64,000 bases of DNA from assembly GCA_037974665.1 (NCBI GenBank), contig CM075772.1, forward strand, positions 41,196,552 to 41,260,551, given 5' to 3'. This DNA is from Ehretia macrophylla (taxonomy: Eukaryota > Streptophyta > Magnoliopsida > Boraginales > Ehretiaceae). Below the pieces are notes generated by a model, which had not been told where the DNA came from, searched no databases, and was given only the letters and a program-made list of their open reading frames with translations. Of the stretch, positions 4,890 through 64,000 are shown one piece after another (position 1 is the first letter of the stretch; every line of letters starts with the position of its first letter). The translations under genes and the position numbers were made by a program.

Positions 4890-6120
4890 TACTTTTCTAG
4901 CATTGAGATAAGGAGACGGGGTAGACCAAGGAGAGAGCCGGAGGAAGCTCCTAAACAAGATGTACCTAAGCAAGGTGCAGGGGCAGCAGGAAATGTACCG
5001 CAAGGTCAGGAACCGAGTAATACACGGATTTTGGCCACAATGACCACCGCCATGAATACTATAGCTCAGTTTGTGGTTCAGCAGGGTACGACAGGTGTTG
5101 GCAGAGGCAATCAGGCTACTAGAGCATAGGGTAGTGGTACTGCTGGAAGTAACTTGTATGATAAATTCCTGTACCACGGGGCATACAGTTTCTATGGTGA
5201 GCCAGATGACATGAAAGCTGAGATGTGGTTGAACAAGTTTGAGAAAGTCTCTGCGATACTCAAGTGCAATGATGAGAGAAATATTACTTATGCTGCATTC
5301 TTAATGGAGGGTGACGCCGAGGAGTGGTGACGCACTGTTAGAGAGAAATGGGATGCTGAGAGGGTCCAGCATGTGTGGGCTGACTTTGTTTGTGAGTTTC
5401 GAGATAAAAATGTATCGGTGGTAGCTCGCGAGTGACATCAGGAGAAATTCATAGCTTTGAGGCAGGGAAATATAGCTATAGATCAGTATGAGGCTACTTT
5501 CACTAGACATTCTGATACGTGCTAGCTTTAGTTCAGCCAGAGGACATGAAGATTCAAAGGTTTATCACAGGGTTGAGGAGTGATATTATGCTTAATCTAT
5601 CTTTGCAGGATTATCCGAGCTATGCTACAGTAGTCAAGGCCGCATCGAGGTACGAGAAACGTAAGGCATATATGTTGGCTTAGTCTAGTCAGTCAAGTAA
5701 ATGACAGTATCAGTCCTAGAGTCAGGGCTACCAGAGGCAATATCAGCAGCCTGTACAGACGCAGCAGCCTAGGCAGACCCAGAGCTATCCAGGACCAGTT
5801 CAGGCACAATCACAGCCAAGACCAGCACAGAGCCAGCCACAGGGACAGTCACAGACCCGACCAATGACTGCTAGATCTCAGCAGGGTAGTTCTGCTACAT
5901 CTACTTACAGGACTCCTCCAGGAGGTGTTGCTGCCAAGAAGAACCTACAGTGCACTCATTGCAATCGCAAGGGCCACACGGAGGTAGAGTGTTGGAGGAA
6001 ATTGGGTCGATGCGTGGGTTGTGGCAGTGATCAACATAGAGCTAGAGATTACCCCAAGTTTAAATAGGGTCAAGGGCAGACTTTTGGCCAGGGTGCTCAG
6101 ACTAGAGCTTCAAGAGCAGC
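4890..6120 (+). pseudogene. Tekay-like gag region (fossil)
   Basis: The opening part has a retrotransposon gag look, with a proline/glutamine-rich stretch before the nucleic-acid-binding end. That end has CCHC knuckles: CTHCNRKGHTEVEC followed by a second cysteine-rich motif CVGCGSDQHRA. The coding sequence is not intact. In the family this protein forms the virus-like particle core. Confidence 0.8.
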
Positions 6121-6139
6121 TTCTGTACCGCGAGGCCAG

Positions 6140-8040
6140 GCATGGGTGTTTGCTCTCGATCAGGAGGAGCTTCCAGACACGACGATGGTGGTAGAAGGTA
6201 CTTTTCTTATTAATAGTCAGCCGGTAATAGTTTTGATTGACACCGGGGCTACACATTTATTCATTACTCTTGCATGTGCACAATCTACTACTTTAAAAGT
6301 TGATAAACTGTCATATGTGATTGAAGTAGGTAATCCTATAGGTATTAAATGTGTTACGGAGTCTGTGTGTAGAAATTGTGATATTTGTGTTGAGGGTCGC
6401 ATGTATCCTATTGATTTGATTATTATGCCATTTCGGGACTTTGAAGTTATCTTGGGGATGGATTGGTTGGGACGATATTATGCATGTTTGGATTGTAGAA
6501 GGAAAGTTTTAACTTTAGATGTACCTGATCAACCTGTTATTAAAGTCATTGGGAGTCGAAAATCTATTGGGACCCGTATCATATATTCTATTAAAGCTAC
6601 TAAAATGTTGGGTAAAGGTTGTGATGCATATTTAGCTTATCTAATTAATCATCCTGGAGATAAATTGAAAATGAACGAGGTACCTGTTATAAAAGATTTT
6701 CCGGGGGTTTTTCCTGAGGAGTTGTCGGGGTTACTACATGACCGAGAGATAGAGTTTGTGATTGATTTATTGCCAGGGACTAATTCTATTTCTAGAACCC
6801 CATATAGAATGGCTCCCCCTGAGTTGCAGGAATTGAAAATTCAGCTACGGGGCCTACTTGAAAAGGGATTTATTCAGCCTAGTTCGTCACCTTAGGGTGC
6901 TCCTGTGTTATTTGTAAAGAAGAAAGACGGGATGCTGCGATTGTGTATTGATTATTGAGGTCTTAATCAGGTGATGGTGAAAACTAAATATCATTTGCCC
7001 TTAATTGAGGAGTTGTTTGATCAGCTGTAGGGTGTTGTTGTATTTTCTAAGTTTGATTTGAGGCAGGGTTATTATCAGTTACGGATTCGTAGAGAAGATG
7101 TACCCAAGACTGTATTCAGAACCAGGTACGACCACTATGAGTTTGTTGTATTACCCTTTGGATTGACAAATGCTCCAGTCGCCTTTATGGATTTGATGCA
7201 GAGAGTATTTAGACCTTATCTTGATCAGTTTGTTGTGATTTTCATTGATGATATACTGGTCTATTCTAAGTCTGAGGCAGAGCATGAAGAACACTTGAGA
7301 ATTGTGCTTCGAACCCGGCAAGAACATAAATTGTTTGCCAAATTTAGCAAATGCGAATTCTGGTTGAAACAGGTTACCTTTTTAGGCCATATCATTTCAC
7401 ATGAGGGAATATCTATTGATTTTGCAAAAATTGAGGTGGTGATGACTTGGAAAAGACCCGAGATTATCAAGGAAGTTCGTAGTTTCTTGGGTTTGGCGGG
7501 CTATTATAGGCGGTTTGTTAAAGACTTCTAAAAAATTGCAGGGTCATTAGCTTCCTTAACCCAAAAGAAAACTGTATTTAACTGGGATGATAAGTGTGAA
7601 GCCAATTTTCAATAATTGAAGAAGAGACTTATCACTGCTCCTATTCTTGCATTGCCTGAGGGAACTGATAATTTGGTGATATACAGTGATGGTTCGAAAG
7701 AAGGTTTGGGTTGCGTTCTTATGTAATATGGTAAGGTGATAGCTTATGCCTCTAGAAAATTGAAACCATATGAACTCAATTATCCTACACACGATCTTGA
7801 GCTTGCTGTTGTTGTCTTTGCTTTAAAGAAATGGCATCATTACTTGTGGGGTAATCAATTTGAGATATTTACTAATCATAAAAGTCTAAAATTTCTGTTT
7901 TCTCAAAAGGATTTGAATATGAGGCAAAGGCGTTGGTTAAAGTTGTTGAATGATTATAATTGCACTATTAGGTACTTGCCAGGAAAAGCTAATACTGTTG
8001 CAGATGCATTGAGCCAAAAAGCTGCTGTAGCTAGTTTGAT
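6140..8040 (+). pseudogene. Tekay-like protease, reverse transcriptase and RNase H region (fossil)
   Basis: The protease is marked by LIDTGATH near 6230 and ILGMDWLGRY near 6455. Reverse transcriptase shows LPFGLTNAP, the active-site FIDDILVYS and [10 protein letters not shown], between about 6750 and 7540. RNase H follows with [10 protein letters not shown] and RQRRWLKLL up to about 8030. This is the normal order for Ty3/Gypsy pol. The region is broken several times and is then separated from its integrase part by the nested solo LTR. Confidence 0.9.
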
Positions 8041-8133
8041 AATCAAGGACTGGGAGTTTGTGGATGAGATGTACTTGTGGAAACCGAAGGCTTCTAGATC
8101 AGGTATCCAATTTGCTAGCTTACAAATCCAGTC

Positions 8134-11100
8134 TGTGATGCCCGAGAACTTCACCGTACATTTATTTACTGTTGCATCTATTATTTGCGCATTTCACTAT
8201 GCATTGCTTGTTGCTTATGTGGTTACTATTTATCACGCTTTTCAACCACTTAATTAATTCGAATTAGCATTTTTCTTAAATCATATTAATTGTTTTAGGA
8301 ATGAGAAAAATATGCATTTGAGCTAAAAACGATAGGAGCATCCGTTTAGTTTATGATTTGTTAAAACTAATTAATAGTGTTACGTAACAAAACTATGTGT
8401 TTTGATTAGCCATCAATTGAATTGCACTTAGGACTCACTTTAAGCTAGCTTAATTCATATTTTGACCAACATACTCACACTAAAATAAAACATATAGACT
8501 TATATATGCTCAACACCTCACACTAAGTTCATAAGTTAGCAAAACACAAAAGAAAAGAGGAAAAGCTGAAAACACTGTAGCAAATCCGAAAATTAGCATA
8601 GGAGGAGAATGAGAGATTTTTTCTCAACAAATCTTCAATCCAAGCCAAGCCAAGCTAGGTGCAAGTGGTTTATGGTGTTTACTAGCCTCCTAGGAGCTCC
8701 TACACCCAATAGGTGAGGGATTTGCATGCTATTTTTGCATTTTTGAAATGTGACAACTTTCTTGAATTTCTTGTTTTGCTCTTAAATGCTATTGCAATAC
8801 TCAAATATGCTTATGTATGTTATATATAAGTAGTAGAGACCTAATTTATGCTATTGTTTCATAGTTTAATCGGTTGAAATTGCTCGTTGAATATTTGGCA
8901 TGAATAATGATGGGAATGCTAGGGTTTTGTGAAATTGGACTTTATAGCTTGAATCAATTATCCTAATAGGTGTTTTAGATGTTAATGAAAGTAGTGTAAA
9001 GGCTCCATAACATTTAATTGCTCATAACCTAGCAAAAGAATGAAATAGCCAACTTTTAGAAAGGGGTTTCGGGGTTATCACGAATTCGGGTAAAATTGGC
9101 CTTCATTTTTGGTGTTCCTAGGCTAAGTAGACCCTAAATAAGCTTTGCTAGCTCCCATTTGAGTCCCGGTTGAGGTACGTGTAGTACAAAGTCAAAAGAG
9201 AGAATTTGGGGCTTTGGGCTAGATGCGGGTAATTGCGTGACTTTGAGGTACTAAGTGGTGTCATTAAGTGTCATTAGGAACGTAGTATAGCTTGGTTGCG
9301 TACCTTGAACTTCGTATTACGTTTGTAAGCTAATTAGCCTTGAATTGCAATGGGGATGTTTTGACCAAGTGTGGAATTTGCTCGGTTTGAGTGTTGACAT
9401 TGTCTTAGGAGGTCATAGAAGCACTTTTGGTATGGTTATGGCATTAGTTGGGTAATTGGTTAACTTAGTTGTAGTATAAATCAACTAAGGGGACGAATGG
9501 AGTTTTGTGATTGTTATAGTTTAAACGGGTTTTTTTTTGCATTTAAATGGATCATAATATGGATAGGTTTGCGTGGTGAAAACGGATTTCTATTGTCATA
9601 GCTTGTTGGGATGTGATAGCTTGAGAAAGTTAGAGAAAATAATAGTATTCTATTGAGTTTTTGTGACTTTTGCTCAATTGATGGTTTTAGTGTTTCTATT
9701 AGGTACCATTAATGCTAGATGGCTTAAATGTTTGCTTAAACCCATTAAAAGATGGCTAGAAGTTGGTTAGAATGACTAGAACATAAAGAGGGATATTTAG
9801 GGCAATTGGTTTGTTCTAGTATTTTAGGTGTTGGTAGAACTTCCTTGTGGTTGGTTAGTGACCGTTGAATGCTTGGAATGCTCGTAGTGTCCTCCTGTTG
9901 CTTAGAAGATAGATTTTTAGTTGGGTTTACGAAAGGGGCTTTCGGAATAAAGTTGGGTTATTTGCTAAGTTTTGATTGGACTTGATGTGTTAGGTGGTTA
10001 TGGATAATTATCTAAGATATGGCATTATCCAGAGAATGTTTCATGAACTAAATTGCATAATTGTTTTTCTCCAATTGAAGATTCTAAGTGAATTCTTGTT
10101 TATAGTAATTGTATTGTCATAGTTCTAAGTGTTTTCCTTGAGTTTTATATTGAGTTAATTGTAAAGAGAATAAGTATGGATTAATGACTTTATAAATTGA
10201 TAGTACTATTATGGAATTAAATATGGTTATCTATGCTTAAAATGCTCTTTAAAATTATTGTAGAAATGCTTATATCACGATTTTATTGTTGTTAGTTATA
10301 TTGTTGGTATATTAGATTACTTGAATGATTACTTGGTTGTATGTTAATTAAGTAAACTATAAGTTAGCTAACCTAGTTGGATAATTAATGAATGTTGTAG
10401 TTAAAGAGTAATTGAAACAATGTTTAACTTTATGTTCAAGGTGATTGAGAGTGATTTGAAGCTAATCTTGCATTGTGGAGCTTGATAGAGGTGATGGAGA
10501 CTTCATCCTTATGTGCATAATAGTTTATTTACTTGTACTTAGATTATGTGCACTTATTGTCTATATATTGTGTGTGAGGGCAACCTACTTCGTTGTCCCT
10601 CAATTATGTGTTTATTGATGTATTCTAATGTTATCATTTTGAGTGCATTACATCGTGGTTGCGCAACCATTTGGGCATGGTAGTGTCGTAGAAATCGGGT
10701 GGCATCGGGCTTGCCGGTATACCTCGGCTACCATGGTTACCCAGTCACTCTCTTGCTTGGGATGCCGCCCAGGGAGAGTTGGGTCGTAGGATTTCGGGGT
10801 ACATCCGGAGTACACCCATTTTGGAGTTATAAGGGGATGCCAGCTTATCGATAACAATGTCATTATTACATCGGGATTTCAGTTCGTGACTCGTGGTTCG
10901 TGATTGAAGAACAAGTGAATCGTATCATTTTTAATGTGTGGTAACTTGTTGTTTCAATTGTTCTTTGTTTGTAAAATGCTTTATTTGTACTAACTGCTGC
11001 ATTGTACGTCCCCGGTAGACCTTATCTCTCACTGGGCAATTGTGATTGCTCATACCTCGCTAACATATTTCAGGAGGTACAATTGGAGGAGGAGTTGCCT

Positions 11101-36131: not shown

Positions 36132-39100
36132 TGTAACGCCCCGATCCCTCACGAGACCGGGACTCCTATTTATCATGCTATTCTCACCCAATTCCAAACC
36201 CCGGGCATGAAATTTTTGGAAAAACGGACGGAGTTTCCCTTATATATAGGACTATCTAGAAACCTGCCAACAATCACATACAAGTCTTGGACCACAATCA
36301 ATCATTCATACAACCTAGTTTACAAGATTCATAAAGCCAACTAGCTCCTTAAGACCATCCGAGCCTTGAAACCCAACAACATATCACACAAGCATACAAA
36401 ATTAAACCCATTGAAATTCTATCTTTTTAATCCACTTATCATACCACTCTATATTAACAAATAAGCTTTCTTATAATTTGTGTCCAACCAACTAATTAGT
36501 TTTCATCGTCCACACAAGCATGCATTCAAAGCGGTAAAGCCTAACTTCAAATATTACATTCCAACTACAAATAACACAAGCTTAAACTTTAAATTACAAC
36601 ACAAACTCCTTTAAGCCTAACAAATACATACAAGACCAAGCTTCAAAGTAGATCATATAACAACAACTTCACACAATTCACATGTAGGCATCCAACCTCA
36701 GCGCGATAGGCAACCCGCAACACGACACTCAAGGTAGTTATTCTAACTGCCCCTGTAACATATTAAAATGAGGAATGAGTAACCTAAGTTACTCAGTGAG
36801 GGAGGTGCTGCAGCATACCGGGGCGTGCAATATGATATGCAATCACAGGAAGTCATATATAACATAAAACAATAAGATCAATAGTCAAGTAATTAACCAC
36901 ATTAAAAAGGATACGGTTCCACTTCAAGTCTTCGATCTCGAACCACGAGCCACGAACTTTATGCAAGTGCCGGCAAACCCATACACCAACAAGTTGGGAT
37001 ACTCCGGATGTATCCCGATCCTACGACCATTTCTCATGAGGTAGATCCATGCCCAGTAGGTGAACCACGCCTCTGGGGTAGTGGAGTATGCCTCAGCGAG
37101 AAGGGAATAGGCACCATGGTAGTCGAGGGAGCACGGCAAGCCCGATGCCGCCCGTGTTTCTCGACACTACCATATCCGATAAGGTTGCTCAATCCCGAGA
37201 CAAGTCACAAGCATTCAAGATATCAAATAACACATAAGAGGGTCGACAAAGTAGGCCGCCCTCACATATATGCACAATATAGGTTCATAATAGCACGAAT
37301 TGGCTTTAGAGAATTAAAAGTAGCAATCAACCAAATCTTTCCTCACAATCAACTCAATTAACTTCATTATACTTTGGATAGTCAATACAATACAAATCAA
37401 CTCAACAACAAGTTCTCAATGCAACAAGAATGGCTAAAAGCTACTTTTCCCCTTTCTTTAACCAAGATTTATTTCTCCTGTGCACGTTCCAAAGTTTCCA
37501 AACCACATCCTAATCATACTATATTCTTAATTAAGCCCAAAGACACCTATTAAGATCATAAAAACCCATTTTAGAAGTTAAAGCTCAGGAAGGCCCCGAG
37601 CGGGTTTGAACTACAACTATACTAACCGAACCCTATTTTCACGTAACGAAAGCACCAAAAGTGCTTCCTTACCCCAAGGATACCCAAACTATAGCCCAAA
37701 CGCACCCGGATTGCACAACGAGAAAAGTCCCCTTTTTAAAGTTAACAAATTTTGCATTTTAACTCATTTTCGGGTAATTCAACCCCACGTGAGTCTTTGT
37801 CTAGTTTCACTAATGTCTAAAGCACCTAAAGGAAGCCTCAATTCAATCTAATTAACAAATTATATTTAAAAAAAATCCTAAATTTTCGGATTTCACTATT
37901 CACTACACTATTCATCATCTCTTTCAATCAATCTATGCATTCTACCATAAAATTTGCTAACAAGTTTTAAAAGTCTACTCTATAGGCTCTAATAAACACA
38001 TATTAAGCATTTATAACAAGTATTATAGCAATAATCAACAAATCAAAATTTTCAATATATGAACATAAACTTTGATAATTATAAAAATGCAACTCCCTCA
38101 CCTTGGTAAAGCTAGGAGAAAAAGGAAAATAGCTAGAACCACCTTTGATCTTGGCTAAAATAGAAGGAAAATGAAGAAAATCAATTCTTGCTCAAAAAGA
38201 AAAACCATCACGGGTCTGCTTCGTGGTTTGCCATTTCTTTTCTTTTACTTTTGCAATTGTTTGACTTTTGTTTATGTTATAATATCTAAGTACATGTACA
38301 TATATAATATATATATATATATAAAACAAATGGCCTAGCTTGTTTTCATATTTTTCTCTATGCTGCTGCTAATCTGATTTCTTTTTCTTTCTTGTGCTAA
38401 GTTGGCTTGTTTTGTTTATTAGTAATATATGTCAAAGTATATAAGTTAAGTAAATAAAAAGCTAACATAAAAATTGGCTCATTAAAATGCTATTAGCGTA
38501 TATTTTAGGTAGAAGATCAATTAGAATATTAAAGGTCCAAAAAAAAAATAATAATAATAATAACCTATCACTATTCACTCAAGGATACTAAAAATATTTA
38601 TTTTTTTCATGCTCGGGACATGAAATGCACATTCTAGCAATGAAGGAATATATTAAATACAATATTATTCAGGGGAAAAAATATCAAATTTGAAAAAAAA
38701 TAAAACAGTTTAAAATTTTACCCGGGCTCAAGTTAAACCTAAAATTAAAACACATAAAAGCAAATAAGACCAAACAAAGACAATTAAGTCAAATACGCAC
38801 ATAAAATAATTAAATATAATAAATTAAAAGTCTCTCTAGGCTCGAGCAGTTTGCATCAATTAAATATAAATAAATAATAAACATAAGATAATCATTTATA
38901 ACAAGTCTTTTCAATCCAATTTAAATAATTATAATTAACATTGAAAATAATCCAACTTGTTCGGGTCCGGGAAACATAAATAAATATAATTATTAAAATA
39001 ATAAACTAGCTCATTCAGATCCTAGCTCGGGCTTCCCGTTCGAACAGTAAGATAAATTAATTTAAAGACATGTAAAACAATTTTAAGTAATTAAAATAAT

Positions 39101-41242: not shown

Positions 41243-44200
41243 TGTAATGCCCCGATCCCTCACGAGACCGGGACTCCTATTTATCATGCTATTCTCACCC
41301 AATTTCAAACCCCGGACACGAAATTTTAGGAAAAACGGACGGAGTTTTTCCTATATATAGGACTATCTAGAAACTTGCCAACAATCACATACAAGTCTTG
41401 GACCACAATCAACCATTCATACAACCTAGTTTACAAGATTCATAAAGCCAACTAGCTCCTCAAGACCATTCGAGCCTTGAAACCCAACAACATATCACAC
41501 AAGCATACAAAATTAAACCCATTGAAATTCTATCTTTTTAATCCACTTATCATACCACTCTATATTAATAAATAAGCTTTCTTATAATTTGTGTCCAACC
41601 AACTAATTAGTTTTCATCGTCCACACAAGCATGCATTCAAAGCGGTAAAGCCTAACTTCAAATATTACATCCCAACTACAAATAACACGAGCTTAAACTT
41701 TAAATTACAACACAAACTCCTTCAAGCCTAACAAATACATACAAGGCCAAGCTTCAAAGTAGATCATATAATAGAAACTTCATACAATTCACATGTAGGC
41801 ATCCAACCTCAGCATGATAGGCAACCCGTAACACGGCACTCAAGGTAGTTATTCTAACTGCCCCTGTAACATATTAAAATGAGGAATGAGTAACCTAAGT
41901 TACTCAGTGAGGGAGGTGATGCAGCATACCGGGGCGTGCAATATGATATGCAATCACAGGAAGTCATATATAACATAAAACAATAAGATCAATAGTCAAG
42001 TAATTAACCACATTAAAAAGGATACGGTTCCACTTCAAGTCTTCGATCTCGAACCACGAGCCACAAACTTTACGCAAGTGCCGGCAATCCCATACACCAA
42101 CAAGTTGAGATACTCCGGATGTATCCCGATCCTACGACCCTTTCTTCTGAGGTAGGTCTATGCCCAGCAGGTGAACCACGCCTCTGGGGTAGTGGAGTAT
42201 ACCTCGGCGAGAAGGGAATAGGCACCATGGTAGTCGAGGGAGCACGGCAAGCCCGATGCCACCCGTGTTTCTTGACGCTACTATGTCCGATAAGGTTGCA
42301 CAACCCCGAGACAAGTCACAAGCATTCAAGATATCAAATAACACATAAGAAGGTCGACAAAGTAGGCCGCCCTCATATATATACACAATATAGGTTCACA
42401 ATAGCACGAATTGGCTTTAGAGAATTAAAAGTAGCAATCAACCAAATCTTTCCTCACAATCAACTCAATTAACTTCATTATACTTTGGATAGTCAATACA
42501 ATACAAATCAACTCAACAACAAGTTCTCAATGCAACAAGAATGGCTAAAAACTACTTTTTCCCTTTCTTTAACCAAGATTTCTTTCTCCTATGCACGTTC
42601 CAAAGTTTCCAAACCACATCCTAATCATACTATATTCTTAATTAAGCCCAAAGACACTTATTAAGATCATAAAAATCAATTTTAGAAGTTAAAGCTTGGG
42701 AAGGCCCCGAGCGGGTTTGAACTACAACTATACTAACTGAACCCCATTTTCACGTAATGAAAGCACCAAAAGTGCTTCCTTACCCCAAGGATACCCAAAC
42801 CATAGCCCAAACGCACCTGGATTCCACAACGAGAAAAGTCCCCTTTTTAAAGTTAACAAATTTTGCATTTTAACTCATTTTCGGGTAATTCAACCCCACG
42901 TGAGTCTTTGTCTAGTTTCACTAATGTCTAAAGCACCTAAAGGAAGCCTCAAGTCAATCTAATTAACAAATTATATAAAAAAAAATCCTAAATTTTTGGA
43001 TTTCACTATTCACTGCACTATTCATCATCCCTTTCAATCAATCTATGCATTCTACCATAAAATTTGCTAACAAGCTTTAAAAATCTACTCTATAGGCTCT
43101 ACTAAACACATATTAAGCATTTATAACAAGTATTATAGCAATAATCAACAAATCAAAATTTTCAATATATGAACATAAACTTTGATAATTATAAAAATGC
43201 AACTCCCTCACCTTGGTAAAGCTAGGAGAAAAAGGAAAATAGCTAGAACCACCTTTGATCTTGGCTAAAATAGAAGGAAAATGAAGAAAATCAATTCTTG
43301 CTCAAAAAGAAAAACCCTCAGGGGTCTGTATCCTGGTTTGCCATTTCTTTTCTTTTACTTTTGCAATTGTTTGACTTTTGTTTATGTTATAATATCTAAG
43401 TACATGTACATATGTAATATATATATATATAACAAATGGCCTAGCTTTTTTCACGTTTTTCTCTATGCTGCTGCTAATCTGATTTCTTTTTCTTTCTTTT
43501 GCTAAGTTGGCTTGTTTTGTTTATTAGTAATATATGTCTAAGTATATAAGTTAAGTAAATAAATAGCTAACATAAAAATTGGCTCATTAAAATGCTATTA
43601 GCTTATATTTTAGGTAGAAGATCAATTAGAATATTAAAGGTCCAAAAATAATAATAATAATAATAATAATAACCTATCACTATTCACTCGGGGACACTAA
43701 AAATATTTATTTTTCTCACGCTCGGGACATGAAATGCACATTCTAGCAATGAACGAATATATTAAATACAATATTATTCAGGGGAAAAAAATATCAAATT
43801 TGAAAAAAAATAAAACAGTTTAAAATTTTACCCGGGCTCAAGTTAAACCTAAAATTAAAACACATAAAAGCAAATAAGACCAAACAAAGACAATTAAGTC
43901 AAATACGCACACAGAATAATTAAATATAATAAATTAAAAGTCTCTTTAGGCTCAAGCAGTTTGCATCAATTAAATATAAATAAATAATAAACATAAGATA
44001 ATCATTTATAACAAGTCTTTTCAATCCAATTTAAATAATTATAATAAATATTGAAAATAATCCAACTTGTTCGGGTCTGGGAAACATAAATAAATATAAT
44101 TATTAACATAATAAACTAGCTCATTCAGATCCGAGCTCAGGCTTCCCGTTCGAACAGTAAGATAAATTAATTTAAAGACGTGTAAAATAATTTTAAGTAA

Positions 44201-56230: not shown

Positions 56231-57055
56231 TTTACTTCAATAACGTCGTGCCCTTTGTAACTGCAGCAGCTAGTAGTAGCCCGCAGCAGCAGCAGTTGTA
56301 GCCCACGGTAGTAGTAGTTGTAGTAGCAGCTAGTAATAGTAGTAGCCCACAGAAGCAGTAATAGTAGTATAGTATTCAATTGCAGAAAAGTAGTGCAGAA
56401 AATTAATAAGAATCTTGCCTGTTATTTAATTCGTGACACATGGCGAGATACCTCTACCACTCTATAAATATAGGTTCGATAACTATTTATCAAATTCAAT
56501 TAGTAGTAGTAGCCCACAACAGCAATAATAGTAGTATAGTATTTAATTGCAAAAAAGTAGTGCGGAAAACTAATAAGAATCTTGCCTGCCATCTAATTAG
56601 TGACACATAGAGAGATACCTCTATCACTCTATAAATATAGGTTCGATAACTATTTATCAAATTCAATTAGTAGTAGTAGCCCACAACAGCAGTAATAGTA
56701 GTATAGTATTCAACTGCAGAAAAGTAGTGCGAAAAACTAATAAGAATCTTGTCTGCCATCTAATTCGTGACACATGGTGAGATACTTCTACCACTCTATA
56801 AATATAGGTTCGATAACTATTTATCAAATTCAATTCAACAAATTTGAGTAATAACACGTATGGCTAGGGTTGCTATAAATAGGCTTTCTACAATTGTTGA
56901 TGAAATGGGGCAACTGAAAAATAAAATGATATCTATCTCCCATAGTAGCCCTTTAGTAGTAGTATATATATATCTCCCATAGAAGTAGGAGATCACAAGC
57001 CATTTACTAAGAAATCACCTAACAGATCACAAGCCATTTACAAAGAAATCACCTA
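56231..57055 (+). promoter_or_regulatory. Upstream region of P450 gene A with three ~167-bp TATA-bearing repeats
   Basis: The region starts TTTACTTCAATAACGTC and then has a GTAGTAGTAGTTG-rich stretch. Three tandem units begin at about 56341, 56508 and 56675, ending near 56836. Each runs from AGTAGCCCACA to ACTATTTATCAAATTCAAT and each contains CTCTATAAATATAGG or a close variant (TATA at about 56463, 56630 and 56797). A further TATA-like AGTATATATATATC lies near 56961. The leader has a 34-bp direct repeat (GATCACAAGCCATTTAC at 56991 and 57025) just before the ATG. Homologous to 61646-62466. Confidence 0.7.
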
Positions 57056-59340
57056 ATGCATATTGAGGTTTCATCTTTGACAATCCTTCTTATAATTGTA
57101 ATCCCATTATTGCTTCTGAAACTAGCAAGTAGATCAAGCACAAACCAGAAGACAAGTTCCAAACTTCCTCCAGGCCCATGGAGGCTTCCATTCATAGGAA
57201 ACATGCACCAGCTTGCTCTTGGTTTGCCCCACCAAGTGCTAAGAGACTTGGCCAAGAAATATGGACCCCTTATGCATCTAAAACTAGGTGAAGTTTATGC
57301 TGTTGTGGTTTCCTCTCCTGAAACAGCAAAAGAAGTGATTTGCACCCATGACATCACTTTTGCTTCCAGGCCACCAATAATTGCAACAAAAATTCTTTCT
57401 TATGATTGCACAAACATTGCCTTTGCTCCATATGGTGAATAGTAGAGATAGGTGCGGAAAATTTGTGTACTTGAGCTTCTAAGCACAAAACGAGTTCAGT
57501 CGTTCCACGCCATAAAAGAAGTAGAAATCTCAAATCTTGTCAGATGGATAACTTGTAATGCAGGATCTTCGATCAATCTGACAGAAATGATAATCTCTAC
57601 TACGTTTAATATCATCTCAAGAGCAGCCTTTGGCAAGAAAAGCGAGGAGCGTGAAACATTCATATCAATAATCAAGGAAGTTGTTAAATTGGCAGAAGGT
57701 TTCAATATTGTTGATGTCTATCCTTCAATTAAGTTTCTTCATTTTATCGGTGGCGTAAATCCCAAACTGGAGAGGCTCAAACTACAAGTAGATAGAATAT
57801 TGGAAAACATCATCGAGGAACATAGAAGAAGAAATACTTCCAGTACTATTAGTGAACAAGAAACATATGAAGATCTAGTAGATGTTCTTCTGAAATTTCA
57901 GGGGAAAGAAGCCGAATTTTCCTTAACCACAAATAATATCAAAGTACTACTTCTGGTTAGTATTTCTGCTTTTCCATATTCTTGCTTATTAGGCTTTTCC
58001 ACTCTTTCTTTCTGTTGGAGACACCATTTGTGTCAACTCCTAATGACTTTAATACATAGATGCGATCTCATGTCTTTTCTCATTTTTGTTCTTTTAACAT
58101 TTGTTTTATGTGAATCCAGCAACCGAAAAAATTCTACCGTTTTCTCCCAGGTATATAAGTTCTGTTAGTTGAATCTATATTTAAGGAAGACTACATAACA
58201 AAAGTAAACAAACTACATAGCATCAACAGGTCTGACCTTTCACTACAAAAACATTTTTAAATAATTGGTTTTCAAATTTTGATTCGTCTTGTTATGATAT
58301 ACACTCTTGTTTCACATAAATAAATAATAAAAAAAAAATTCTTAAATTACCATGTAAGATATTAGGCTAGTACTCTTAATAGTACCACTTTATTTTAGTT
58401 TGGAACCCATGCATGATTTTTAGCATGATATTAGAATTGAGTTTTGATCCGCTCTTATATATCCATTTACATATGACTATTCTCTAACTCACTAACCCAC
58501 CCACCCACCTACCCACCTCAATATCTGGTCTTGTGCTTTGACTTACCCTTTCAATGTTAACTTTTGTATTCAAAAGATGCTTCCCTTGTCCCACGTAGAA
58601 AGATAATAAATTTCTCACAAAATGAGTTACACCGAGAAAGAGCAATTTCATTCTCCTTTTTCTGCCCGTTAATGACATGCATTGTCTCTAATTTCGTGAT
58701 CATAAGATAATTGCAATTTCTGTATCAGGACATGTACAGTGCTGGAGGTGAGACATCTTCAGTAATTGTAGATTGGGCAATGTGTGAAATGCTCAAGAAC
58801 CCAAGTGTACTGAAGAAGGCTCAAGCCGAAGTGAGACAACTTTTCAATAATAAAGGATATGTTGATGAAGCAAATCTTCATGAATTAATATTCCTCAAAG
58901 CAGTAATCAAAGAGACTCTTAGGCTACATCCTCCAACTGCTTTATTACTTCCAAGAGAATGCAGAGAAGCATGTGAGATCAATGGATATGAGATCCCGGC
59001 CAAGACCAAGGTTATTGTGAATGCATGGGCCATTCGAAGAGATCCTAAATACTGGCAAGATCCTGAACGCTTTAAACCAGAGAGATTTCTTGATAGTTCA
59101 ATTGATTTTAAAGGGACTAATTTTGAATACATACCATTTGGTGCTGGAAGGAGGATATGCCCTGGTATCTCATTTGGTTTGGCAAACATTGAACTCCCAC
59201 TTGCAAAGTTTCTGTATCATTTTGATTGGAATCTGCCCAATGGAATGAAAAATGAGGAACTAGATATGACAGAGACTTTTAGAGTGACTACCAGAAGGAA
59301 GGATGATCTATATGTAATTCCCGTTGTCTATAAACTTTAG
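57056..59340 (+). pseudogene. Cytochrome P450, CYP71D-like, gene A (three clustered stops)
   Basis: Exon 1 is 57056-57955 and exon 2 is 58729-59340, with one GT-AG intron, as in CYP71 genes. Together they give about 503 residues, the usual length. There is an N-terminal membrane anchor, a proline hinge ([18 protein letters not shown]), the I-helix AGGETSS, KETLRLHPP (ExxR), PERFKPERF and the heme loop PFGAGRRICPG. The Cys is present. These are microsomal monooxygenases; CYP71D members often oxidise terpenoids, alkaloids or flavonoids, and the substrate cannot be read here. Where genes B and C encode YWRQ, gene A reads TAG TAG AGA TAG (57440-57451): three substitutions within eight bases, each making an amber codon in the conserved C-helix. 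Everything else is open and nearly identical to gene C. Translation should stop at about 128 residues. Confidence 0.9.
58494..58518. repeat. CCCA-type microsatellite in the P450 intron
   Basis: ACCCACCCACCCACCTACCC in gene A's intron has a counterpart at about 63906-63926 in gene C with a different repeat number. It is a convenient marker to tell the two copies apart. Confidence 0.7.
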
Positions 59341-59528
59341 ACAAAATAATTAATAAAAGAATGGATCTTTTTCCGTTTGCTTCAAATATCCATTCCACTT
59401 TGATGGTCTAGACTTATGATCTATATGTAATTCCCGCTGTCTATAAACTTTAGACAAAATAATTAATAAAAGAATGGATCTTTTTCCATTTGCTTCAAAT
59501 ATCCATTCCACTTTGATTTTCTAGACTT
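59303..59528 (+). repeat. 113-bp tandem duplication of the gene A 3' end
   Basis: The last codons and 3' UTR (ATGATCTATATGTAATTCCC to about 59415) are repeated almost exactly at 59416-59528. The second copy includes a relic of the final codons and the TAG. It duplicates the AATAATTAATAAAAGAATGG polyadenylation-like stretch. Confidence 0.85.
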
Positions 59529-61135
59529 ACGTTTCATATGCAGCATGCTTAACCTTTATTCAGAGTTAATTATTCTGATCAATGTGAGAAATCCGACGTG
59601 CTTTACACTAGTTGTTAACTGCTTAATGCAACCCTTCTTCTTTATATGAGCTTGGAATCAGCAATGTCAGAGAGAGAGAGAGTTAATTACTGGACATTCT
59701 TAAAAAAATAGATGTAGGACATTTAACCTCGACCAATAAAGGAAAGAAATGCATCCCCAATCAAAGGGTAACTTTTCATCATGAAAAGATGCATGTTGTA
59801 AAGTCAACATTCTCGGGAAAGCCATGCAGGAAAAATGACTCTCTATCAGATGGGAAAATCTACTATCTCAAATGAGCTTATGAAATGCCTTATATAAGGC
59901 AGACACCCCTCACTCTTTGGTAACTTGAAATTCCACATTAACAATCAAGATTCAATCCTCTTATTTGCCTTAAAATCTCTTTGAATTTTACCAAATTAAT
60001 TTAAGCATTGGAGTGTCCATTTGGGCTTATAGCACGGGTGCCACTTATCTATTCTCTTTTAGAAGAAACTGTATATAGTAGATTCAAGAGTAATTTAGTG
60101 ATGGATTACTCCCTTAACAGTTGAAAGACCAGTGTTCTAATCTCATGAGAAGTAGAGGGCAAGTAGGGTAGGGGATAAAATCAAAAAAACAAAAAATAAA
60201 AACATTGCATATAGATCTTTTCCGCATCTGAGATTCTAATTGTAGATACCACCATTTGGTTTTTGCTGAAGGTTGTCGAAAATTAGTTGGATACTTCCAT
60301 AAGAACATTGATTGTCTCCTATATACCACTTTTGACTGAATCTGTTTGTCTTCTCTTGTTGAGTACATTATGCAAATAAGAAATGGTATTTTGGAAGATG
60401 TAAGAGGGCTACTATTGGTTCAAGTTCAACAAATAAAATCCACATAGGCTCCACTTGTACCGTTTTGATTGGCCTTTGTTAAAATATATTCAATAATTTC
60501 AATATATTTCCATATGTCATGCCACTAGTTTAGGCAATATTCAAATTGTTTCTTTATTAGATTAGTTTTCAACTTTCCTTATTTGGTTCTGTTACTAATT
60601 AGTCTAGTTCATCATGTAGTCAATATCTTTTCCTCTCTTCTAGAGCCACCGTTGGTGGTGGCTCCTCCTATTATTTTTAATATACATATATTTCCCCCCC
60701 ATATTTTCTCTTTTATTTTTTCTTTCAACAGCCTTATGAGCTCTCTTACGCACTACTCTTCCACAAACTTTGTAAGTTTCCGAGAAAAAACATACAGATG
60801 AATACTCAAGGCATACATGGTAGGATTTTCTTAATTCAATTAATTCTTCTATTTTCACTCTTTTTGTTTTTTTGTTCAACGTACATATTACAAACCACTG
60901 AAACATATTAAAATGAGTTCTCAATTATTGAAACACATATAAATATAATCCAGCACATGGCCTTGATGAACTCGCATACACAGCCAAATGTCCTCTTTAT
61001 ACGATGGAAAGGAATCGACCCAGAGCATCTTTTTTTTTTTTTTTTTGGATTTTCTCTATTGGTATATGCAAATTGCCCAGTATAAATCTCCCATAAAAGT
61101 CATAGATAACAAGCCATTTACAAAGAAATCGCCTG
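59529..61135. other. Spacer between P450 genes A and B
   Basis: No gene seen. It contains a GA run at about 59671-59681, a block near 59900-59990 resembling 55105-55200, the LTR relic at 60480-60730, and a T18-like run near 61029-61046. The last ~90 bp (CCCAGTATAAATCTCCC at 61077, CAAGCCATTTACAAAGAAATC) is the proximal promoter and leader of gene B. Confidence 0.5.
60480..60730 (+). mobile_element. LTR relic related to 54766-55099, opposite orientation
   Basis: It shares CTAGTTTAGGCAATA, AATTAGTCTAGTT, ATGTAGTCA and CTAGAGCCACCRTTGGTGGTG with the minus strand of 54766-55099. It is degraded, and no primer site or partner LTR was found. Confidence 0.5.
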
Positions 61136-61645
61136 ATGGATATTGAGGTTTCATCTTTCACGATCCTTCTTATTCTTATAATCCCATTAGTACTGCTTCT
61201 GAAACTAAGAAGCAGATCGATCACAAACAAGAAAACAAATTCCAAACTTCCTCCAGGTCCATGGAAGCTCCCTTTCATAGGAAACATGCACCAGCTTGCT
61301 TTTGGTTTGCCACAAGCGGTGCTCAGAGACTTGGGCATGAAATATGGACCTCTTATGCACCTAAAACTAGGTGAAGTTTCTGCTGTTGTGGTTTCCTCTC
61401 CTGAAACAGCACAAGAAGTGATGAAAACCCATGACATCGCTTTTGCTTCCAGGCCACCAATAATTGTAACAAAGATTCTTTCTTATGATTGCACAAGCAT
61501 TGCTTTTGCTCCATATGGTGAATATTGGAGACAGCTCCGGAAAATTTGCATACTAGAGCTTCTCAGCCCGAAACGAGTTCAGTCTTTCCACGCATTGAGG
61601 GAAGAAGAAATCTCAAATCTTGTCAGATGGATAACTTGCACTGCT
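61136..61645 (+). pseudogene. Cytochrome P450, CYP71D-like, gene B (5' part only)
   Basis: From ATG 61136 the frame gives the membrane anchor, the hinge [18 protein letters not shown] and the C-helix [14 protein letters not shown], up to [10 protein letters not shown] at about residue 169. P450 homology then stops abruptly, and the sequence becomes the upstream repeat region of gene C (TTTACTTCAATAACGTC at 61646). It is the most divergent of the three genes ([12 protein letters not shown] instead of [12 protein letters not shown]). The cut coincides with the junction of a tandem duplication, so the truncation is structural. The anchor and substrate-recognition start are present but there is no heme-binding half, so no enzyme activity is expected. 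Confidence 0.88.
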
Positions 61646-62466
61646 TTTACTTCAATAACGTCATGCCCTTTGTAACTGCAGCAGCCAGTAGTAGCCCGCA
61701 GCAGCAGCAGTTGTAGCCCACAGTAGTAGTAGTTGTAGTAGTAGCTATTAGTAGTAGTAGCCCACAGCAGCAGTAATAGTAGTATAGTATTCAACTGCAG
61801 AAAATAGTGCGAAAAACTAATAAGAATTTTGTCTGCCATCTGATTCGTGACACATGACGAGATACCTCTACCATTCTATAAATATAGGTTCGATAACTAT
61901 TAATCAAATTCAATTAGTAGTAGTAGCCCACTGCAACAGTAATAGTAGTATAGTATTCAACTACAGAAAAATAGTGCGAAAAAACTAATAAGAATCTCGC
62001 TTGCCATCTAATTTGTGACGCATGGTGAGATACCTCTACCACTCTATAAATATATGTCCGATAACTATTTATCAAATTCAATTAGTAGTAGTAGCCCACA
62101 ACAGCAATAATAGTAGTATAGTATTCAACTGTAGAAAAGTAGTGCGGAAAACTAATAAAAATCTTGCCTGCCAACTAATTCGTGACGCATGACGAGATAC
62201 CTCTACCACTTTATAAATATAGGTTCGATAACTATTTATCAAATTCAATTCAACGAATTTGAGTAATAACACGTATGACTAGGGTTGCTATAAATAAGTT
62301 TTCTGCAATTGTTGACGAAATGGGGCAACTGAAAAATAAAACGATATCTCCCATATTACCCCTTTAGTAGTAGTATATATAAATCTCCCATAGAAGTAGG
62401 AGATCACAAGGCATTTACTAAGAAATCACCTAACAGATCACAAGCCATTTACAAAGAAATCACCTG
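61646..62466 (+). promoter_or_regulatory. Upstream region of P450 gene C, second copy of the TATA-bearing repeats
   Basis: It is homologous to 56231-57055 over its full length. Three units start near 61756, 61922 and 62090 (spacing 166 and 168). Each has CTATAAATATA or a near match; in the first, second and third units the ACTCTATAAATATAGGTTCG string varies slightly. The 34-bp leader repeat is present before ATG 62467. Confidence 0.7.
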
Positions 62467-64000
62467 ATGGATATTGAGGTTTCATCTTTGACATTAATCC
62501 TTCTTATAATTATAATCCCATTATTGCTTCTGAAACTAGCAAGTAGATCAAGCACAAACCAGAAGACAAGTTCCAAACTTCCTCCAGGCCCATGGAGGCT
62601 TCCACTCATAGGAAACATGCACCAGCTTGCTCTTGGTTTGCCCCACCAAGTGCTAAGAGACTTGGCCAAGAAATACGGACCCCTTATGCACCTAAAACTA
62701 GGTGAAGTTTCTGCTGTTGTGGTTTCCTCTCCTGAAACGGCAAAAGAAGTGATTTACACCCATGACATCACTTTTGCTTCCAGGCCACCAATAATTGCAA
62801 CAAAAATTCTTTCTTATGATTGCACAAACATTGCCTTTGCTCCATATGGTGAATATTGGAGACAGGTGCGGAAAATTTGTGTACTTGAGCTTCTAAGCAC
62901 AAAACGAGTTCAGTCGTTCCACGCCTTAAGAGAAGAAGAAATCTCAAATCTTGTCAGATGGATAACTTGTAATGCAGGATCTTCGATCAATCTGACAGAA
63001 ATGATAATCTCCACTACGTTTAATATCATCTCAAGAGCAGCCTTTGGCAAGAAAAGCGAGGAGCGTGAAACATTCATATCAATAATCAAGGAAGTTGTTA
63101 AATTGGCAGAAGGTTTCAATATTGCTGATATCTATCCTTCAATTAAGTTTCTTCATTTTATCAGTGGCGTAAAGCCCAAACTGGAGAGGCTCAAACTACA
63201 AGTAGATAGAATATTGGAAAACATCATCGAGGAACACAAAAGAAGAAATACTTCCAGTACTATTAGTGAACAAGAAACATATGAAGATCTAGTAGATGTT
63301 CTTCTGAAATTTCAGGGGAAAGAAGCCGAATTTTCCTTAACCACAGATAATATCAAAGCAGTACTTCTGGTTAGTATTTCTGCTTTTCCATATTCTTGCT
63401 TATTAGGCTTTTCCACTGTTTCTTTCTGCTAGAGACAGCATTTGTGTCAACTCCTAATGACTTTAATACATAGATGCGATCTCATGTCTTTTCTCATTTT
63501 TGTTCTTTTAACATTTGTTTTATGTGAATCCAGCAACCGAAAAAATTCTACCGTTTTCTCCCAGGTATATAAGTTCTGTTAGTTGAATCTATATTTAAGG
63601 AAGACTACATAACAAAAGTAAACAAACTACATAGCATCAACAGGTCTGACCTTTCACTACAAAAACATTTTTAAATAATTGGTTTTCATATTTTAATTCG
63701 TCTTGTTATGATATACACTCTTGTTTCACATAAATTAAAAAAAAAAAAAAATTCTTAAATTACCATGTAAGATATTAGGCTAGTACTCTTAATAGTACCA
63801 CTTTATTTTAGTTTGGAACCCATGCATGATTTTTAGCATGATATTAGAATTAAGTTTTGATTCGCTCTTATATATCCATTTACATATGACTATTCTCTAA
63901 CTCACTAACCCACCCACCCACCCACCTCAATATCTGGTCTTGTGCTTTGACTTACCCTTTCAATGTTAACTTTTGTATTCAGAAGATGCTTCGCTTGCTC
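62467..64000 (+). CDS. Cytochrome P450, CYP71D-like, gene C (partial, runs off window)
   Basis: Exon 1, 62467-63369, is fully open (301 residues) with the anchor, hinge [18 protein letters not shown], intact C-helix YWRQVRKICVLELL and AAFGKKSEERETF. The intron starts at GTTAGT (63370) and continues past the window end; it matches gene A's intron almost base for base. By comparison with gene A, exon 2 with the I-helix, ExxR and heme loop should begin about 140 bp beyond the window. Exon 1 is nearly identical to gene A apart from the three amber codons there, so this looks like the working member of the pair. It is likely a microsomal monooxygenase of specialised metabolism; the substrate is unknown. 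Confidence 0.9.

Follow-up and report, generated by a model that had tools for sequence, protein, structure and literature searches.

Three adjacent amber codons in a tandem P450 pseudogene of Ehretia macrophylla: a candidate short inverted template switch

Inverted template switching is a known source of multinucleotide mutations. In yeast coding genes, template switching has been described between imperfect inverted repeats with arms of 7-16 bp, searched up to a spacer of 70 bp (Abraham and Hazkani-Covo 2021, PMC8604942). Short-range template switches in great apes were treated under a four-point model (Walker et al. 2021, PMC7954356). There, the median length copied was 12 bases and the median number of differences per cluster was 10; length was kept in only 5.5% of the best-supported events. 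Mutation clusters are also mentioned in a ginseng tissue-culture paper (PMC8747682). Among the matches listed in our literature search, which was not a full review, no inverted template switching in a plant gene appeared in the titles or the starts of the abstracts. Here, we describe a cluster of private changes in a P450 gene of E. macrophylla (gene A) for which no donor copy was found and which has an exact 10-bp inverted match nearby.

Gene A and its relatives

The window, i.e., the whole stretch of 64,000 nucleotides that was analysed, is C9:41196552-41260551 of a 1.58-Gb assembly of 20 contigs, and genome searches covered this assembly. Gene A lies on the forward strand. Exon 1 (57056..57955; 300 codons, starting with the ATG at 57056) is followed by a GT...AG intron with intact splice sites (57956..58728) and by an open exon 2 (58729..59340) that ends with a terminal TAG at 59338-59340. 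The Pfam profile PF00067 (p450) matched the piece of gene A before the stops, the piece after the stops and exon 2, and exon 2 contains PFGAGRRICPG, which we take to be the P450 haem-binding motif; profile match and motif together place gene A in the P450 family. The putative subfamily label CYP71D was carried over from the preliminary description and is presumed here. Among solved plant P450s, exon 2 was best matched by ferruginol synthase and sugiol synthase.

In the frame set by the ATG, positions 57440-57451 of gene A read TAG TAG AGA TAG (codons 129-132, with stops at codons 129, 130 and 132), where gene B (near 61520) and gene C (near 62850) have TAT TGG AGA CAG at the matching codons. 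The ambers result from three substitutions, 57442 T>G, 57444 G>A and 57449 C>T, in the tract TAGTAGAGAT (57440..57449, forward strand). All three are private to A, and the other aligned copies carry T, G and C at these sites in 29/29 cases. Outside the triple amber, the remainder of exon 1 and exon 2 are open and the splice sites are GT and AG; with the three ambers counted as codons, the frame has 503 codons before the terminator. Identity between genes A and C is 97.3% over exon 1, 97.5% over the intron and 98.5% over exon 2. The preliminary description had reported three TAGs in place of the codons of B and C, an otherwise open gene and near identity to C, and all of this was borne out. Since three stop codons stand side by side, gene A is dead; it is an ordinary pseudogene, an inactivated tandem P450 copy with an instructive scar.

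A genome search with exon 1 gave at least 48 matches, counting A itself and several split matches (40 of 67 candidates were scored), and among the matches listed all were on C9, near 23.0-23.7 Mb and 41.25-41.35 Mb. Gene C (L010 in our numbering) belongs to these copies, as does L014 (C9:23271894), which is 96.4% identical to A in exon 1 and, judged by spacing and common upstream sequence, has A's relative position in the other array. L014 is also a pseudogene, with its own, different stop near codon 32. Exon 1 stops or frameshifts were found in 7 of the 28 copies L010-L037 and, given also the early stop of L014, broken copies are therefore common in the arrays.

Several other features of the window were recorded. 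Gene B (61136-61690) matches exon 1 over only about 506 bases and then passes into TAG-rich repeat sequence. A repeat of about 168 bp with TAG and CAG triplets is present in three copies upstream of A (56334-56835), and matching copies also lie between B and C. The last codons and the 3' flank of A (59303-59540) are apparently tandem-duplicated, about 113 bp apart, and the doubled end motif was also seen in sister copies. Two similar open frames about 5.1 kb apart (36906-37361 and 42017-42472) may mark a duplicated segment, and open frames at 6068-8257 resemble, by eye, retrotransposon protease, reverse transcriptase and RNase H.

The inverted match at 57593-57602

The mutated tract TAGTAGAGAT recurs 143 bp downstream, at 57593-57602, as an exact reverse complement. 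The proposed template arm is on the reverse strand and reads ATCTCTACTA on the forward strand. In the parent state, the two arms, TATTGGAGAC and ATCTCCACTA, are complementary at 8/10 positions. The changes at 57442 and 57449 remove both mismatches and copy the template arm's ancestral state, and 57444 G>A has its partner in 57598 C>T, a synonymous change in the template arm that is also private to A, so that the two sites form a covarying pair. Thus, the two arms hold four private changes and are now perfect. As is expected of a template-switch (quasi-palindrome) mutation, the cluster of private changes is matched by a nearby reverse complement, here the exact 10-mer.

Within 200 bp, only the observed combination of bases at the three sites, out of 27, yields an inverted match that long. 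With the template at 57593-57602 picked out after the fact, random triples of the same spacing equalled the observed one within 200 bp in 0.40% of 1500 cases and, in a repeat of the test, in 0.3% of 1000 draws; when the range was widened to 2 kb, 1.4% had as long a match, and over 4.2 kb on both strands a 10-mer was found by 80 of 3000 (2.7%). The observed combination was the best of the 27 over 4.2 kb and no longer so over 10 kb or the whole 64-kb window. Up to 2 kb away, no match spanning the three sites was found in the reversed, complemented or direct orientation. The TAG-rich repeats upstream of A were considered by eye as a template and rejected; in the direct orientation, no exact match spans the three sites within 2 kb in either direction.

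The pattern in both arms was also compared with random scatter of changes. Of 4000 scatters, 0 placed at least four changes in the arms of one perfect 10-bp repeat; when A's positions were kept and only the bases were redrawn, the arm pattern had a P of 0.058 (0.057 by another count). For a newly made repeat at lengths of 8, 9 and 10, P was 0.035, 0.0074 and 0.013 for the whole pattern and 0.0032, 0.0012 and 0.0006 when any covarying pair counted (5000 scatters). The two changes that remove mismatches gave, by themselves, 0.59, 0.17 and 0.19. A looser union statistic (at least 9/10 paired), simulated at the 9/10 threshold only with the observed value taken at 8, 9 and 10, gave no signal, the observed 2 being reached in 480 of 1500 simulations. 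Among 29 copies scanned after the poorly aligned L038, L040, L041, L042, L043 and L049 had been dropped, A was the only one with two or more private changes within a perfect 10-bp repeat (four changes; at most one in the other 28), and at 8 bp L023 also has two. In sum, the tests of a template against chance gave P values of 0.003-0.06 by most nulls, 0.17-0.59 for the mismatch-removing changes alone and nothing in the looser statistic, and the statistical support for an inverted template is moderate.

The predicted single-strand fold did not pair the two arms with each other. In this fold, the template arm is joined to 57520-57528, a pairing that takes in the private sites 57522 and 57598, and the fold as a whole was no more stable than shuffles (z -0.82). 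Closeness (70 bp or less, as in yeast) or folding of the arms is helpful and not strictly required for a switch; here, the spacer is 143 bp. Because only TA (2 bp) precedes the first change in the tract and nothing of it extends beyond the last, there is little priming homology.

The triple amber is most likely the product of one multinucleotide event, and the reading that we prefer, with a probability of roughly 0.5, is one short inverted template switch from 57593-57602. During DNA synthesis or repair, a strand would briefly have taken the imperfect inverted repeat 143 bp downstream as its template; about ten bases would have been copied, turning TATTGGAGAC into TAGTAGAGAT and leaving the arms perfectly complementary. 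The silent 57598 C>T would then have preceded the three ambers, and the inverted match would have caused these changes, all in one event. Clustered mutation had been one of the options in the preliminary description, and the local inverted template found here speaks for it.

The arm at 57593-57602 is partly complementary not just to 57440-57449 but also to 57520-57528, which belongs to a second private cluster of A (57510..57528, forward strand), with amino-acid-changing substitutions at 57512, 57516 and 57522. It is conceivable, although quite improbable, that this arm acted in a three-arm cascade as a local mutator of both private clusters, with spacers of 64 and 143 bp. Successive inverted copying would in that case have produced 57522 and 57598 first and the three ambers afterwards.

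Alternative origins of the three ambers

The main rival to a templated switch, possible if rather unlikely, is one untemplated multinucleotide mutation, for example a short patch of error-prone synthesis, with the inverted match a coincidence. The substitutions of A are mildly clustered overall, with 9 pairs within 12 bp where 3.8 were expected (p 0.02). Other clusters in A also speak for an event of this kind: within 200 bp, no template was found for 57749-57760 and none covered 57512-57516-57522 as a whole. However, under an untemplated event the exact 10-bp inverted match would be a coincidence, of 0.3-6% probability by most nulls, although some looser tests found no excess over chance.

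Further observations were made on clustering. The changes at 57516 and 57522 fall within a match to a direct 9-mer at 57328 (p 0.007, in one of 18 tests of a cluster in a given orientation). The pair at 57945-57947 had looked by eye like a quasi-palindrome correction and was rejected as such, since p was 0.32 when the derived sequence served as template. In the other copies, close pairs were about as many as expected (summed by eye, without L038, L040, L043 and L049), with the exception of L014, in which private changes cluster as well (7 pairs within 12 bp versus 1.7 expected).

Independent decay after inactivation, in which three separate substitutions happened to make stops, is quite unlikely. 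Compared with the majority sequence of four close copies, A differs at 22 sites of exon 1: 14 of the changes alter an amino acid, 5 are silent and 3 make stops. This spectrum appears to be about that of an unconstrained copy, as would suit decay. The seven broken exon 1 copies among L010-L037 point the same way, and in the parent exon 1 no four consecutive codons other than 129-132 (YWRQ) include three that a single substitution turns into TAG. Positional clustering by itself is not striking either, with p 0.03 for two triples within 12 bp; a single set of three changes spanning no more than 8 bp is just mildly unusual (p 0.07), and the rarity therefore lies in all three changes being stops. 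When 22 random exon 1 changes were drawn 200,000 times with A's transition share, at least one stop arose in 48% of the draws, at least three in 2.3%, and at least three within 12 bp in 1 of 200,000, a rough rate of about 5e-6. Even multiplied by tens of copies, this rate per copy is small, although the site was chosen post hoc. The argument of the preliminary description that random decay would scatter changes suits the triple, but there are 19 other exon 1 differences between A and its sisters.

A short gene conversion tract from a pseudogene that has been lost or is absent from the assembly is less probable still. The divergence of A is uneven, which would suit conversion: A-specific changes are concentrated in exon 1 (20/902 sites versus 8/1477 in the intron, exon 2 and the 3' flank; p 0.0005, or 0.0017 with the amber cluster counted once). 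The 3' part of A may have been homogenised with sister copies; L014 has no such exon 1 excess of private changes (p 0.23). Interlocus conversion calls for a donor copy with the same variant, but with the patterns tried the variant was found in the assembly only in A. In a second alignment, the stretch was TATTGGAGAC in 32 of 34 other copies, the remaining two (L038 and L040) differed from it at positions other than A's three, and none of A's three bases was found in any of the 34. The amber variant was also absent from nine further fragments (L044-L046 and six shorter ones), five of which have the parent sequence and four of which lose similarity just after TATTGGAG, before the third site; L044-L046, in which a stretch of exon 1 is missing, were kept out of later alignments. 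Genome-wide (1.58 Gb), a 21-mer around the ambers (up to 1 mismatch), a 17-mer around the ambers and a 26-mer of the neighbouring private cluster (up to 2 mismatches) were each found only in A. Since the 21-mer is unique to A in the assembly, no donor copy is visible there, and the conversion tract from another pseudogene that had been proposed earlier finds no source with any of the three patterns. Two close intron changes in A (58015-58017) create TTGGAGAC, identical over these eight bases to the C-helix site of the sisters, probably by chance.

The chance of an assembly or consensus error, an artefact of the kind listed in the preliminary description, is slim. The locus is known here from assembled sequence alone, and the array is repetitive. 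A copy-mixing artefact is disfavoured because A's three bases are private and not common to neighbouring copies, and the concentration of A-specific changes in exon 1, rather than a spread along the gene, also argues against an error. Finally, that TAG is read as an amino acid in A is very unlikely, and the preliminary description had also thought recoding unlikely: the stops are without exception TAG and nothing else interrupts the frame, but A and its four closest sisters (L010, L011, L013 and L014) terminate in TAG, and one codon would have to stand for different residues, the other copies having Y, W and, in nearly all, Q.

Comparison with known systems

The triple amber of gene A is a case of a known kind of mutation, not of a new genetic code. 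If the template switch is true, a single slip in local copying is enough to inactivate a gene by several stops together, and adjacent stops should therefore not be taken as independent decay when pseudogenes are dated. Tandem plant P450 arrays, with dozens of similar copies, would be a good place to measure such events. Like other plant tandem P450 pseudogenes, gene A is a P450 of two exons and stands in a tandem array in which several copies are broken; unlike the other copies examined here, it alone has three adjacent ambers.

The great ape events (PMC7954356) differ from gene A, which has three substitutions and no length change; as in great apes, copying of a reverse complement, close in length to their median of 12 bases, would account for the cluster. 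The yeast cases (PMC8604942) were searched up to a spacer of 70 bp, whereas the spacer in gene A is 143 bp, and gene A is, unlike them, a plant pseudogene with three stops in which the template arm also has a private change. Like the yeast cases (Abraham and Hazkani-Covo 2021, PMC8604942), gene A has a private multinucleotide change that perfects short inverted arms, here of 10 bp, in a coding exon.
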